Below, piece by piece: positions 53,151-61,624 of a stretch of DNA of 64,000 nucleotides. The translations under genes and the position numbers were made by a program. The notes under the pieces were generated by a model that was given only the letters and a program-made list of their open reading frames with translations, had not been told where the DNA came from and did not search any database. Origin of the DNA: Myxococcota bacterium (lineage in GTDB: Bacteria > Myxococcota_A > UBA9160 > SMWR01); NCBI GenBank assembly GCA_039030075.1, contig JBCCEW010000002.1:186001-250000 (forward strand). The letters run 5' to 3'. The stretch's first letter is position 1; every line of letters begins with the position of its first letter.

Positions 53151-53924
53151 ATGTCGATCGTACGCCGCGAGACCCGAGGAGCCACGGCGCTCCTCGTCAT
53201 GAACCGTCCGAAGGCGCTGAACGCCCTCGACGCCGCCACCCTCGAGGCCCTGGGTCAGGAGATCGCGGCGGTGGCCTCCGACCCCGACCTGCGTGCGCTC
53301 GTCGTCACCGGAGAGGGTCGCGCCTTCGTCGCCGGTGCGGACATCAGTGAGATGCAGGGACTCGATGCCCGCGAGGCCGGGATCTTCTCGCGGCTCGGCC
53401 ACCAGACCTTCGAGGCCCTCGAGGCGCTCTCGATCCCGACCATCGCGGCGGTCAACGGCTTTGCGCTGGGAGGTGGCTGCGAGCTCGCCTGCGCCTGTGA
53501 CTGGATCTACGCCTCGGAGAAGGCTCGCTTTGGCCAGCCGGAGGTCAATCTCGGGATCCTGCCGGGCTTCGGTGGCACGAGTCGTCTCGTGCGGCGCGTC
53601 GGTGTCGGCTGGGCGAAGGAACTCGTGATGACCGGAGAGCCCATCGATGCGGAGACCGCGGCGCGCATCGGATTGGCGAACCGGATCTTCCCTCCCGAGA
53701 AGCTGGTCGACGAGGCGGTCGCGATGGGCGAGACGATCGCGGCGAAGGGGGGGCTCGCCATCGCGTCAGCGAAGCGCGTGATGCAGCAGGGCCAGGATGC
53801 CGACGTGCGTGTCGCGCACGCCCTCGAGCAAGAAGCGTTCGCGGCGGCGTTCGCGACCGAGGATCGCAAGGAGGGGATGACCGCCTTCGTCGAGAAGCGC
53901 GACCCCGCCTTCAAGAACCGCTAG
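53151..53924 (+). CDS. enoyl-CoA hydratase/isomerase
   Basis: Crotonase fold, 257 residues. The oxyanion segment FVAGADISEM and the catalytic Glu pair (FALGGGCE and QPEVNLGILPG) are intact, so crotonyl-CoA-type hydration is likely. It could serve beta-oxidation or the crotonyl-CoA branch. Convergent overlap with the MCP gene by four bases. Confidence 0.93.
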   Translation: MSIVRRETRGATALLVMNRPKALNALDAATLEALGQEIAAVASDPDLRALVVTGEGRAFVAGADISEMQGLDAREAGIFSRLGHQTFEALEALSIPTIAAVNGFALGGGCELACACDWIYASEKARFGQPEVNLGILPGFGGTSRLVRRVGVGWAKELVMTGEPIDAETAARIGLANRIFPPEKLVDEAVAMGETIAAKGGLAIASAKRVMQQGQDADVRVAHALEQEAFAAAFATEDRKEGMTAFVEKRDPAFKNR

Positions 53925-55984
53925 CGGTCTTCCCGGTCGGTCTTGAAGCGACCGATCTCGCTCTCGAGGCGAGCGGCGCGTTCGAGCAACCCGGCGACGC
54001 CCTGGTTGATCTCTTCCGCGCCGGCCTTGCTCTCCTCGGTGACGTCCGTGAACACCTGCAGCGCGGTCTGAATCGTCTCACTGCTCTTCGCCTGGGCGCT
54101 GGTGGCCTCGGCGATCTGCTGCACCCGATTGCTGAAGTCGGATACGGCGCGCGTGATCAAGCTGCTGCCGCGGCGCTGCTCTTCGGTGGAGTCGCGTACG
54201 GCCATGCCGAGCTGGCGGATGTTGTCGACGGAGTCGGCGATCTCGCTGGTCGCGATCTGCTGGTCGTGCGTGGACTGGTCGATCGCGCGGCCGATCGTGC
54301 GTACCTCGACGAGCGACTGCTCGACGCGATCGAGCTCCAGCGCCTGACGCTCGGTGGCCTCCACGATGCGTCGCACGTGGTCGGTGGAAGCTCGGGTCTT
54401 GTCGAGGATGCGACTCAGCACTTCGCCTGCGACGTTCGAGCGCTGGACGCCCCGCTCGACGACGGTGCCGCCTTCCCCCACGGCCTGCACCGCTGTCTCG
54501 GTATCGGACTGGACCGCGCGGATCAGCTCGGTGATCTCGCGGGCCGAGTGGTGGGTGCGGTCGGCCAGGCCCTTCACCTGCTCGGCGACCACCGAGAAGG
54601 CGCGCCCGTGCTCGCCGGACTGGGCGGCGATGATGGCGGCATTCAGGGAGAGCAGGCTCGTCTGGTCGGCGACGTCCTTGATCACCTGGACGATCTCTTC
54701 GATCGACTGGGACTTGTCGGCGAGGCGCGACACGCGCCGCTCGAGGGCGCTGAAGCTCGACTGGATCTCGCCCATGGCGCCGATCGTCTCGCGCACCGCG
54801 TCCATGCCTTCGCCGGCTTCGCGACTCGACTCCTCGGAGAGGTCGAAGGTCTCGGCGGCGTTCTCCTTGACGTGCACGACGGAGGTGCTGAGCTCGGAGA
54901 GCCGTTCCGCCGTGTCGGCCGACGCCACCTGGAGGGACTGCACGCCCCCGGCCACCTGCGAGATGCTGGTCGTGACCTGGGTCGCCGCGCCGGACGCGGT
55001 GTCGATGGCGCCGGCGAGCTGGTCCATGTGGTTGGCGATCTCTCCGATCGCCGCGTCGAGCTGCAGCACCGAGGACGAGGTCTCGCGCGCGACGTCGGCG
55101 AGGCGCTCGGCGTTCACGTTCACGTCGCGAATCGAGTCACTCACCTGCTCGACCGACTCGGCCGAGTCCGCGACCGCGACCGACTGGCGACTGGCCTGAT
55201 TCGCCAATGAGGCGCTCCGCTCTTCCAGCACGCGGGACACTTCACTCACGCCACCGATGCTCTGGCGCACCTGCGCAACGAGTTCCCGGAGGCCGACGGT
55301 CATCGCGTTGAACGAGCCCACCAGGTCGCCGATCTCGTCGTCGGCGCTGCGCGACAGCGGACGCGTCAGGTCGCCCTGTGCGACGGCCGCGGTGTTGTCT
55401 CGCAGGGAGGCCAGCGGTTGGGCGATCTGTCGCCGCAGGCGTCCCGCGATCAGGAAGGAGAGGACCAGCGCGACGACACTCACGCCGGCACCCATCCAGA
55501 GGTACATCCAGATCCGGTCGGAGAGCGACTTCGTGTCGATCCAGAGCATGATCGTGCCGACCTGGACACCCTGGAAGGTGATGCTCTCGACCATCTCGAG
55601 GCCGCGGTCGCCGAACTCGTGGCCCTCGGGGCGCGGTGTCGGTGCCTTCCCCGGCTCGACCCCGGTGGAGTTCGAACGGTAGGCGGCGAAGGGGCGGCCC
55701 TGGATGTCGAAGACGTGGGCTTCCAGCACGTCGGGCACGGTGTTGAGCGCAGCCAGGTTTTCCTGGACCGCGCCGGCGTCATCGAAGGAGAGAGCGACCG
55801 CGCTGTTGGTGCCGACCACGCGCGCCAGCATCGTCCCGCGAGACACGAGGTCCTCGCGCAGGGTGCGCGACTCGTAGAGGATCAACGCGGCGAAGACCCC
55901 AAGCAGGGAGACCGTCGTCGTGAGGGCGATCGCCCAGACGAGCTGGCGGTCGATCGAGCGATCGTGGCGCCGTTCTCCGATCAC
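53921..55984 (-). CDS. CHASE8-HAMP-MCP sensor protein
   Basis: 687 residues. Transmembrane helix at 15-37, periplasmic CHASE8-like domain about 40-155 (NSAVALSFDDAGAVQENLAAL, VFDIQGRPFAAYRS), second helix 160-183, HAMP 183-235 (PLASLRDNTAAVAQGDLTRPL), then a long coiled-coil methyl-accepting signalling domain. The tip near 436-462 reads DVADQTSLLSLNAAIIAAQSGE, keeping the hairpin pattern but with I for E and Q for R. CHASE8 is the input domain of the diguanylate cyclase YfiN, which this gene's neighbour YfiR represses. GTG start overlaps yfiR stop (GTGA). No che genes are near. Confidence 0.85.
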   Translation of the reverse strand: MIGERRHDRSIDRQLVWAIALTTTVSLLGVFAALILYESRTLREDLVSRGTMLARVVGTNSAVALSFDDAGAVQENLAALNTVPDVLEAHVFDIQGRPFAAYRSNSTGVEPGKAPTPRPEGHEFGDRGLEMVESITFQGVQVGTIMLWIDTKSLSDRIWMYLWMGAGVSVVALVLSFLIAGRLRRQIAQPLASLRDNTAAVAQGDLTRPLSRSADDEIGDLVGSFNAMTVGLRELVAQVRQSIGGVSEVSRVLEERSASLANQASRQSVAVADSAESVEQVSDSIRDVNVNAERLADVARETSSSVLQLDAAIGEIANHMDQLAGAIDTASGAATQVTTSISQVAGGVQSLQVASADTAERLSELSTSVVHVKENAAETFDLSEESSREAGEGMDAVRETIGAMGEIQSSFSALERRVSRLADKSQSIEEIVQVIKDVADQTSLLSLNAAIIAAQSGEHGRAFSVVAEQVKGLADRTHHSAREITELIRAVQSDTETAVQAVGEGGTVVERGVQRSNVAGEVLSRILDKTRASTDHVRRIVEATERQALELDRVEQSLVEVRTIGRAIDQSTHDQQIATSEIADSVDNIRQLGMAVRDSTEEQRRGSSLITRAVSDFSNRVQQIAEATSAQAKSSETIQTALQVFTDVTEESKAGAEEINQGVAGLLERAARLESEIGRFKTDREDR

Positions 55985-56538
55985 CGGCCTTCCTCGACGA
56001 CGCGCGCGAGAGCCAGGAGCCGCGAGCTGATCTTCAATCCCTCGCGCTCGGCGGCGCCCGGGTTGATCTCGAAGCGGAGCTTTCGACCATCGGGAAAGAA
56101 GTTGATCATGCCGCCCTGGGAGGCGAAGCCGGGCATCTCACTCACCGTGAGGACCCGTCCGCCGCGTGTCGCGGCGAGCAGGCTCTCGGGAGTGACGACG
56201 CCGTCGCGCGCCAGGAAGACGATGCGGCAGTCCGCAGACCCGTCGATGCTCGTCAGGTGACGCACCTCGACGGGGGTTCCGCCGAGGCTCGCGCCCTCGA
56301 GTGCGCGCGTCAGCACCGCGGTGCCCTCGGTGTCCCCGAGTAGACCGATGACGAGCTTGCCGCCCGCGGGCGTGTCCCCCGGCCAGGTGACGAGCTTCGC
56401 GAAGTTCAACAAGAAGGCCGCTTTGACCTTGTACTCGTCGTACTCCGCCCGGCTTTCCGGCGCAAAGCTGCACAGCCCGAGCATCGCCGCGAAAGCGAGC
56501 GTGAGCCGTCGATGAAGAGGTGTTGAGAGCTTGGTCAT
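55981..56538 (-). CDS. YfiR-family periplasmic regulator
   Basis: YfiR/DUF4154, 185 residues. Signal peptide with cleavage near SRAEYDEY; the mature N-terminus KVKAAFLLNFAKLVTWP is the family hallmark. In known Yfi systems this periplasmic protein represses a CHASE8 diguanylate cyclase. Only one cysteine (104) is found after the signal, unlike the disulphide-bearing Pseudomonas protein. It starts one codon beyond the TonB receptor stop and is translationally coupled to the MCP gene. Confidence 0.92.
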   Translation of the reverse strand: MTKLSTPLHRRLTLAFAAMLGLCSFAPESRAEYDEYKVKAAFLLNFAKLVTWPGDTPAGGKLVIGLLGDTEGTAVLTRALEGASLGGTPVEVRHLTSIDGSADCRIVFLARDGVVTPESLLAATRGGRVLTVSEMPGFASQGGMINFFPDGRKLRFEINPGAAEREGLKISSRLLALARVVEEGR

Positions 56539-56541
56539 CGA

Positions 56542-58512
56542 CTAGTACAGCCAGCGAACCGATCCGTAGAAGCTGCGGGGTACGTCACTCGCGCGAGTGA
56601 AGACCGAGTCGGCGAATTCCTGTTGGGGCTCGATCACGTTGAGGCCCACCAGCGAGACTTCGAGGTTCTCGCGGACCCGCCAGCCCAGCCGCATGTCGAG
56701 GCGGGCGTGGGCGTCGATCTGGTTGCTGTTGGTGCGGTTGGTCGCCTGGCGATCCACCCAGAAGAGGGTGGTGTCGAACTCGAAGTCCCACGGCAGGTTG
56801 ATGCGCGTCCCGATGTGGAAGGCGTGTCGGGGCGTCTCGGTCTCGGCGGCGTCGCGGGCGTTTGCGTCCGCCCCTCGCGACTTGAAGCTGAGGTCCGTGC
56901 GCGTGAAGTGGTAGCCGCCGGACAGGTTCAGGAAGTCGGTCACCGCCCACTGCGCCGCGATCTCGCTGCCGTAGCCGACGCCCCGCAACCGGTTGAAGAA
57001 GGTCTGGTTCTGGAGCGTGATCGGTCCGAACGGGAAGCTGGAGACCGTCTCGACCGAGCGCAGGTCGTCGTAGTCGTTGATGAAGAATGCGAAGTCGAGG
57101 GTCACCGGGTCGAGGGGTCGGGTGCGGTAGCCCATCTCGTAGGCGATGACTTCTTCAGCGTCGAAGCGAGACGAACCGACGATCTGCTGGAAGGTGTTCG
57201 GTGCCGTCGTCGAGGGCTGGAAGATCGCGACGTCCTCGTCCGACCGGGCCGGCGTTCGCACCGCCCGGGAGACCGACGCCCACAGGGTGTGGCGATCGTT
57301 CGGCGTCACCAGCACGCGGGCGCTGGGCTGCACCTCGAAGCCGCTGTAGTCGTTCTGCTCGAACTTCGAGCCGATCGTCAGCGAGAGCAGATCCTCGATG
57401 ACCTGGATCTCGTCCTGCAGGAAGAAGCTGCCGACGTTGTCGGTCTGGGCGCGCCCCCGGAAGCCGAGGCCCAGGCGACCGGAGATGCGGTCGGTCGAGG
57501 CACGGAAACCGGCGCCCCAGACCAGCCGATTCCCCTCGAAGGGCTGGAAGGAGTGCTGGAAGTCGACGTCGAAGGTGTCGCGGTGCTCCTCGATGATCGG
57601 AGTATCGCGGACGTTGCGGTCGTAGTAGAGCTGGAGCGACATGTCCGAGGTGTCGGAGAACTGGTGGGACGCCCGTGCAAGCACGTTTCCGCCCGTGTAC
57701 TCGTCTTCACCTTCGATGCCCACCGGTGCGATCGTGTGCTCGGCGTCGGCGTCGTAGAAGTCGCCCTGGACCGTGACCAGGGAATCCTCGGTGGCCTGCC
57801 AATCCAGGCGGCCGCCGGCGCGCACGCTCTGCCAATCGTCGTGCGCATCCCCGCCGAGCCGACTCTCGTAGTCGGCCCGGTCGGCGAACTTCCCGTAGAC
57901 GCGATAGTGAACGTTGTCACCGATCGCTCCGCCGAAGCGCGAGGCGCCGTTGAAGCGCTCGTGGGTACCGACGCGCGACACGGTGGCGAGGCCCTGGGTC
58001 TCGGTGGAAGTCTTCGTGATGATGTTGATCACGCCGTTGACCGCGTTGGCGCCCCACAGGGTGCCGCCCGGTCCGCGCACCACTTCGATGCGATCGATGT
58101 CCTCGAGCATGAGGTCGTGCTCGGCCCAGACGATTCCGGAGAACAGGGGGGTGTAGATCGAGCGACCATCGACCATCACGAGCAGCTTGTTCGAGTACTC
58201 GTCGTTGAAGCCGCGGGCAGACACGGCCCAGCGGTTCGCATCGATCTGGGCGACGTTGAGGCCCGGCACGCGTCGCAGGAGGTCGGGGATCGAGGTCGCC
58301 CCCGAGCGCCGAATCTCCTCGTGCGTGATTACCGTGACGGCGGCAGGCGTGTCCGCCGCGCGCCGCGCACTCTTGGTTGCGGTGGTGACCTCGAGTTCCA
58401 TCAGGTCCTCGAGATCCATGGCCACCAGGTCTTCCTCGACGGCTCCCGCCGAGGTCGCCCAGAAGACGATCGCCAGGCCCACCAGGACCTGGACTCCCCT
58501 TGTTTGCACCAT
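56542..58512 (-). CDS. TonB-dependent receptor
   Basis: Outer-membrane receptor, 656 residues. Signal peptide to SAGA; the mature start has LEDLMELEVTTATKSARRA, typical of the receptor subgroup found with YfiR. The plug domain (AAVTVITHEEIRRSG, GRSIYTPLFSG, IEVVRGPGGTLWGANAVNGVINI) and a beta-barrel with aromatic end (SFYGSVRWLY) are complete. It may import a metal complex, vitamin or oligosaccharide. The start is the ATG at 58512; the frame is open upstream only without conservation. It heads the operon with yfiR and the MCP. Confidence 0.93.
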   Translation of the reverse strand: MVQTRGVQVLVGLAIVFWATSAGAVEEDLVAMDLEDLMELEVTTATKSARRAADTPAAVTVITHEEIRRSGATSIPDLLRRVPGLNVAQIDANRWAVSARGFNDEYSNKLLVMVDGRSIYTPLFSGIVWAEHDLMLEDIDRIEVVRGPGGTLWGANAVNGVINIITKTSTETQGLATVSRVGTHERFNGASRFGGAIGDNVHYRVYGKFADRADYESRLGGDAHDDWQSVRAGGRLDWQATEDSLVTVQGDFYDADAEHTIAPVGIEGEDEYTGGNVLARASHQFSDTSDMSLQLYYDRNVRDTPIIEEHRDTFDVDFQHSFQPFEGNRLVWGAGFRASTDRISGRLGLGFRGRAQTDNVGSFFLQDEIQVIEDLLSLTIGSKFEQNDYSGFEVQPSARVLVTPNDRHTLWASVSRAVRTPARSDEDVAIFQPSTTAPNTFQQIVGSSRFDAEEVIAYEMGYRTRPLDPVTLDFAFFINDYDDLRSVETVSSFPFGPITLQNQTFFNRLRGVGYGSEIAAQWAVTDFLNLSGGYHFTRTDLSFKSRGADANARDAAETETPRHAFHIGTRINLPWDFEFDTTLFWVDRQATNRTNSNQIDAHARLDMRLGWRVRENLEVSLVGLNVIEPQQEFADSVFTRASDVPRSFYGSVRWLY

Positions 58513-61548: not shown

Positions 61549-61624
61549 CGGGGTGTAGCTCAGTGGCCAGAGCCTGACCTTTGGGTGGTCAGCGTCGTGG
61601 GTTCGAATCCCACCACCCCGACCA
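61549..61624 (+). tRNA. tRNA-Pro (anticodon TGG)
   Basis: Acceptor CGGGGTG pairs with CACCCCG, then discriminator A and an encoded CCA. D-stem GCTC/GAGC, anticodon stem TGACC/GGTCA with loop TTTGGGT (anticodon TGG), and T arm GTGGG-TTCGAAT-CCCAC. All stems are perfect. Confidence 0.97.

Follow-up and report, generated by a model that had tools for sequence, protein, structure and literature searches.

The YfiBNR system of Pseudomonas aeruginosa and the YfiR-DgcN system of Escherichia coli share a gene for a periplasmic protein, YfiR, that adjoins a gene for an inner-membrane protein with a CHASE8 (periplasmic PAS) and a HAMP domain, and their output is a GGDEF domain. A stretch of 64,000 nucleotides from an uncultured Myxococcota bacterium, referred to here as the window, contains a locus in which the input half looks the same but a methyl-accepting chemotaxis protein (MCP) replaces the GGDEF domain, and this raises the question of whether a Yfi-type envelope signalling unit can be read out by a chemosensory array. 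The preliminary description of the window had proposed that a TonB-dependent receptor, YfiR and a CHASE8-HAMP-MCP protein are encoded in one tightly spaced operon, that receptor occupancy is relayed through YfiR to such an array, and that the combination is not known to have been described.

The three-gene arrangement is confirmed as real. The genes lie on the minus strand at 53921-58512, in the proposed order of transcription, with YfiR starting 3 nt past the receptor stop codon and the TGA of YfiR overlapping the GTG of the MCP gene as GTGA (Table 1). Codon-position GC is like that of real genes, with 85-91% at third positions. By reading, the locus is flanked by leuD on one side and, on the opposite side, by an enoyl-CoA-hydratase-like gene in convergent orientation; no gene for an OmpA/Pal-like YfiB lipoprotein stands among the neighbours of the operon, and in comparison with YfiBNR the TonB receptor replaces that lipoprotein. 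The operon region gave no sigma-70-like promoter, and an Rfam search returned no upstream riboswitch that could serve as a clue to the substrate, its sole match being a tRNA at 61549-61621.

Table 1. Features of the locus (positions in the window) and che clusters of the same genome
Feature	Position	Strand	Evidence or gene content
TOL_0244-type TonB-dependent outer-membrane receptor, 656 aa, ATG at 58512, stop TAG	56542..58512	minus	Pfam Plug and TonB barrel; NF053590
YfiR-like periplasmic protein, TOL_0243 family, 185 aa	55981..56538	minus	PF13689, NF053591, phmmer
CHASE8-HAMP-MCP chemoreceptor, 687 aa, GTG start	53921..55984	minus	Pfam CHASE8, HAMP, MCPsignal; full-length alignment with 13 YfiR-linked relatives
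CHASE8 periplasmic sensor domain, residues 48-148	55541..55843	minus	PF17152, 54.8 bits (cut-off 27)
VALSF, residues 63-67, aligned to YfiN/DgcN AAVVF	55784..55798	minus	Alignments
HAMP domain, residues 183-233	55286..55438	minus	PF00672, 41.8 bits
Hairpin tip LLSLNAAIIAAQSGEHGRAFSVVA, residues 444-467, 228 residues past the HAMP DE.G motif	54584..54655	minus	Tip comparison; structure model
C2 che cluster			CheY, CheA, CheW, CheW, MCP, receiver with Zn ribbon, HEAT, CheR, CheB
C26 che cluster			Double-CheW CheA, CheW, dCache-MCP, CheB, HDOD
C19 che cluster			CheA, CheY, CheW, MCP, CheC; Dif-like by gene content

Profile searches bore out the domain composition expected of the output protein, in which CHASE8 and HAMP are followed by an MCPsignal domain (PF00015, residues 381-562, 135.9 bits) and Pfam detects no GGDEF. 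YfiR exceeds the cut-offs of both PF13689 (139.9 bits against 24.9) and the NCBIfam model NF053591 (126.5 bits against 125), and phmmer matches it to the solved P. aeruginosa YfiR (E 4e-6). Two observations had been named beforehand as speaking against the proposal, namely the lack of a CHASE8 match and a separate YfiN cyclase pairing with this YfiR. The CHASE8 match is clear, and a search of the draft genome (5.76 Mb in 55 contigs, 95% complete) found a single YfiR and a single CHASE8, so that a separate YfiN competing for YfiR is ruled out within the assembled sequence.

According to P. aeruginosa genetics, YfiR binding involves two sites, the AAVVF motif in YfiN and, in YfiR itself, a hydrophobic C-terminal patch (PMC3375315), and both have counterparts in the window. 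An ungapped C-terminal alignment pairs I160, F162, E163 and L183 of P. aeruginosa YfiR with L154, F156, E157 and L177, so the YfiN-binding hydrophobic patch, as defined by these four residues, is retained; F151 and I169 are not conserved, being I145 and A163 here. The disulfide Cys145-Cys152 of the P. aeruginosa protein is absent, with A139 and N146 at the aligned positions, which sets this YfiR apart from the P. aeruginosa branch, to which the disulfide criterion applies, and not from PF13689 as a whole. On the membrane side, AAVVF of E. coli DgcN aligns without gaps with VALSF of the MCP, and the Phe of the motif (F67) is invariant in 14/14 aligned MCPs and is also present in 12 aligned kinase CHASE8 domains. 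Judged by these alignments, the YfiR-binding interface motif of YfiN is kept in the CHASE8 domain of the chemoreceptor, and an AAVVF-like motif with a matching hydrophobic YfiR patch can be counted among the features shared with YfiBNR and YfiR-DgcN. AlphaFold2 models the N-terminal 160 residues as a PAS/Cache-like periplasmic fold (pLDDT 91), and the best PDB match to this CHASE8 model is the periplasmic domain of the LapD orthologue CdgS9. LapD-type periplasmic domains signal through protein binding. The full-length MCP model, which at a pTM of 0.34 is used for topology only, has a helix-turn-helix reversal near residue 456. A Glx-pair motif ~124 residues past the tip, a candidate methylation site, recurs in roughly half of the 14 relatives in the alignment.

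YfiR family matches occur in 37 of the 91 genomes of the class, and 53 YfiR loci of the class were compared. In 22 of them, the window not counted, a CHASE8-HAMP-MCP gene lies directly beside YfiR on the same strand, and because the pair recurs in these other loci its presence in the window is not due to chance. Of the other loci, one contains a broken MCP, one an MCP in convergent orientation and nine a CHASE8-kinase in place of the MCP; the rest show neither type near YfiR. Seven MCP and three kinase cases were confirmed with Pfam, the other kinases being assigned by motif, and incomplete genes account for two of the 22 MCPs (L064 at a contig end, L063 through a phage-integrase fusion). An MCP is missing from all 15 YfiR loci compared from the phylum outside the class, 14 of which have a CHASE8-histidine kinase, so the kinase seems to have been replaced by the MCP at the level of this class. 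A tree of the signalling domains needs a single label change for the YfiR-linked MCPs; the exact split has a support of only 35, and the set together with one long-branched outsider has 96 and resolves mostly by family groups. From this tree the YfiR-linked chemoreceptors appear to be essentially one clade. The CHASE8 tree needs three label changes.

Several loci of the survey depart from the common pattern. CHASE8-MCP genes are frameshifted or truncated beside an intact YfiR at L055:5400-7200 (genome G071) and L068:7053-7346 (genome G069). At L063:511-2106, a phage-integrase C-terminus is joined in frame to a CHASE8-HAMP segment with half of the MCP coiled coil, either by insertion or as an assembly chimaera. 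Genome G013 holds about ten YfiR homologues (e.g. L056, L060, L079 and L087), several of them with no nearby CHASE8 partner. Candidate CHASE8-MCPs in che clusters of Nitrospirota were rejected, as the domains proved to be sCache or sub-threshold CHASE8.

The receptor gives Pfam matches to Plug (2e-23) and TonB barrel (9e-29) and scores 619 bits against the NCBIfam model NF053590 (TOL_0244), covering positions 2-602 of 604 and staying under the cut-off of 645, so it is best described as a close relative of TOL_0244 below the equivalog line. TOL_0244-type receptors were found in 25 of the 91 class genomes, and all 25 belong to the 37 YfiR-bearing genomes (hypergeometric p about 1e-13, uncorrected for kinship). 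Within the YfiR-MCP loci, some of which end at contig ends, the receptor adjoins just 8 of 23, and the family was not detected at the threshold used in 8 YfiR-MCP genomes; for these reasons we regard the YfiR-MCP pair as the core and the TonB receptor as a real but optional input. The neighbourhood survey called for in the preliminary description thus upheld the pair and found the receptor at only part of the loci. At L066:5192-10026 a YfiR-MCP pair stands next to a leuD-like gene, as in the window, without a TonB receptor gene; the receptor seems to have been gained or lost at this syntenic position. At L101:2582-6977 a TOL_0244-type TonB gene is followed after ~120 nt by CHASE8-HAMP-MCP, and the 15-kb locus has no YfiR. 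For the step from receptor to YfiR the evidence consists of operon order and genome co-occurrence, which makes it a weaker link than that between YfiR and the MCP.

The genome encodes four MCPs, three inside che clusters (C2, C26 and C19) and the fourth the orphan of the window, whose gene is 216 kb from the C2 cluster. Between the HAMP DE.G motif and the tip lie 228 residues in both the window MCP and the C2 resident, against 179 in C26 and 158 in C19, and the tips are likewise NAAIIAAQ in the first two, NATIEAAS in C26 and NASIEAAR in C19. Only the window and C2 proteins thus combine an unusual tip of the form II[AS][AS][QH] with the 228 spacing, the tips of the C26 and C19 proteins being of the form IEA[AS][RS]. 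Across the class genomes sampled, the same spacing occurs in every measurable YfiR-linked MCP and every measurable C2-type resident. It corresponds to a hairpin of ~224 residues per arm, or 32 heptads, which places the window MCP roughly in the 64H class by an estimate from length and not by a class HMM. Chemoreceptors with this spacing and tip class, which have long hairpins (about 64H judged by length) and IIAAQ tips, are found in C2-type clusters and as orphans in Myxococcota, in relatives of Geobacter and in Nitrospirota. These residents and orphans differ in carrying other sensor domains (sCache or unknown ones); outside the CHASE8 group, none of those examined has YfiR as a neighbour.

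A C2-type CheA (at least 50% identical) is present in 24/25 genomes with a YfiR-linked MCP compared with 30/66 others (Fisher p 3e-6, a value that is optimistic because the genomes are related), and C2-type clusters with IIAAQ-type residents also occur in other Deltaproteobacteria and in Nitrospirota. Orphan receptors have been assigned by CheW-binding tip and heptad class in Myxococcus (PMC3945109) and in MiST (PMC6943060). By the same kind of comparison, the C2-type che system is the likely partner array of the window MCP. Two flagellin and five PilT-family genes in the genome point to a flagellated cell, probably also with retractile pili.

Two genomes were considered as natural experiments on this partnership and set aside. 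G071 has no C2-type CheA and a frameshifted MCP, but its use as a natural knockout was dropped, as it retains another IIAAQ-tip MCP and its assembly is fragmented. G082 has a C2-type cluster (L208:521-8700) with CheA, CheW, the Zn-ribbon receiver, HEAT, CheR and CheB and without a resident MCP; as proof that the YfiR-MCP is the sole receptor it was rejected, a second orphan with the same tip being present (L235). At L015:12384-16528 the genes between MCP and CheR encode a HEAT-repeat protein and a receiver that starts with a zinc ribbon, a pair widely conserved in the C2-type clusters found in Myxococcota, in other Deltaproteobacteria and in Nitrospirota.

On this evidence we favour, as probable though by no means secure, a Yfi-type envelope signalling unit with a chemoreceptor as its cytoplasmic output. 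YfiR would act as a periplasmic protein ligand of the CHASE8 domain, and its binding or removal would shift the transmembrane helices and HAMP so that the MCP coiled coil switches its signalling state; the MCP would join the C2 array and alter CheA activity. The TonB-dependent receptor may be a cis-encoded input that changes the amount of YfiR free for CHASE8, by sequestration, by release or by supply of a YfiR-binding solute. The sequences establish the three genes and their domains, the recurrent pair, the retained motif and the agreement in tip and length with one array; from these we infer the binding of YfiR to CHASE8, the physical contacts, the entry into the array, the role and ligand of the receptor, and the sign or direction of the response. 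Of the relay put forward in the preliminary description, the part in which YfiR feeds a chemosensory array via the CHASE8 chemoreceptor is well supported by comparison, because the pairing is conserved, the YfiR-binding motif is kept, and tip and length match one che cluster. The full relay, from the state of the TonB transporter through free YfiR and chemoreceptor output to CheA, falls somewhat short of an even chance. Counted against our explanation are the partial association with the receptor, the loci L066 and L101, the distance to the che cluster, the lost YfiR cysteines and the broken MCP genes of L055 and L068.

YfiR might alternatively serve as a solute-binding protein, the receptor importing a small molecule and liganded YfiR docking on CHASE8. 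This explanation stays alive because P. aeruginosa YfiR has been crystallized with vitamin B6 and L-Trp in the pocket that also takes F57 of YfiB (PMC4887326), and it would agree with the confinement of the receptor family to YfiR-bearing genomes and with the PAS/Cache-like fold of CHASE8. No upstream riboswitch points to a substrate, however, and P. aeruginosa genetics favour a plain repressor role (PMC3375315), and we therefore consider it unlikely. A solute or membrane cue could also be sensed by CHASE8 alone, with YfiR and the receptor as neighbours for other reasons; the likeness of the fold to Cache ligand-binding domains and the CHASE8-MCPs without a detected YfiR at L101 and possibly L104 would fit, but the 23 loci with a directly adjacent YfiR come from several family groups within the class, and the Phe of the YfiR-binding motif never varies, which leaves this reading rather improbable.

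That the MCP signals to another array, the C26 dCache-MCP cluster or the Dif-like C19 cluster, or outside arrays altogether, is prompted by the presence of three che clusters in the genome and by the mixed use known in some bacteria. We hold it to be very improbable, since length and tip are unlike those of C26 and C19 and the same as those of C2, and receptors of unequal length are thought not to mix (PMC3945109). An assembly or annotation artefact, which the draft state of the genome might suggest, is already contradicted by the same fused architecture in 22 other separately assembled loci and by the coherent gene tree, and its probability is negligible.

Against this background, the signalling unit with a chemoreceptor output can be set beside known systems. 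An NCBIfam trio of TonB receptor, YfiR and histidine kinase (NF053590, TOL_0244; NF053591, TOL_0243; NF053592) shares with the window the receptor family, the YfiR family and the CHASE8-HAMP input half, and differs in having a kinase where the window has the MCP signalling domain. The N-terminal half of the MCP protein scores 151 bits over positions 1-217 of NF053592 ('HK near YfiR-like'), short of the cut-off of 194, as the receptor falls short of that of NF053590. With these matches the TonB-YfiR-CHASE8-kinase trio must be regarded as already catalogued, and the difference lies in the output. Outputs of YfiN homologues were also known to be modular in 2012, comprising GGDEF, GGDEF-EAL, Hpt and histidine kinases (PMC3375315). 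The claim of an undescribed combination accordingly holds for the output, as no description of YfiR with an MCP output or with TonB was found in the open-access papers searched, and not for the trio or for output swapping as such; the new element is a chemoreceptor output on a known Yfi-type scheme.

Maltose-binding protein, the binding protein of an ABC importer, docks on Tar. The window offers a predicted parallel in which a periplasmic protein touches the sensor domain of a chemoreceptor, with the difference that a YfiR-fold protein and a TonB receptor take the place of the ABC importer binding protein. It would be a natural case of a protein ligand driving an MCP, probably tied to an outer-membrane transporter, and it would extend the modular Yfi scheme to chemosensory arrays. 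The comparison also names a concrete partner array, open to testing, for an orphan family of receptors in an uncultured class, and CHASE8 domains with swapped outputs form a natural set for studying how one input works different machines. These data suggest that an uncultured bacterium routes outer-membrane events to a chemosensory array and not to the usual c-di-GMP enzyme or histidine kinase; if the full relay is true, the cell would steer or reprogramme itself by outer-membrane transport, and not by a periplasmic ligand.
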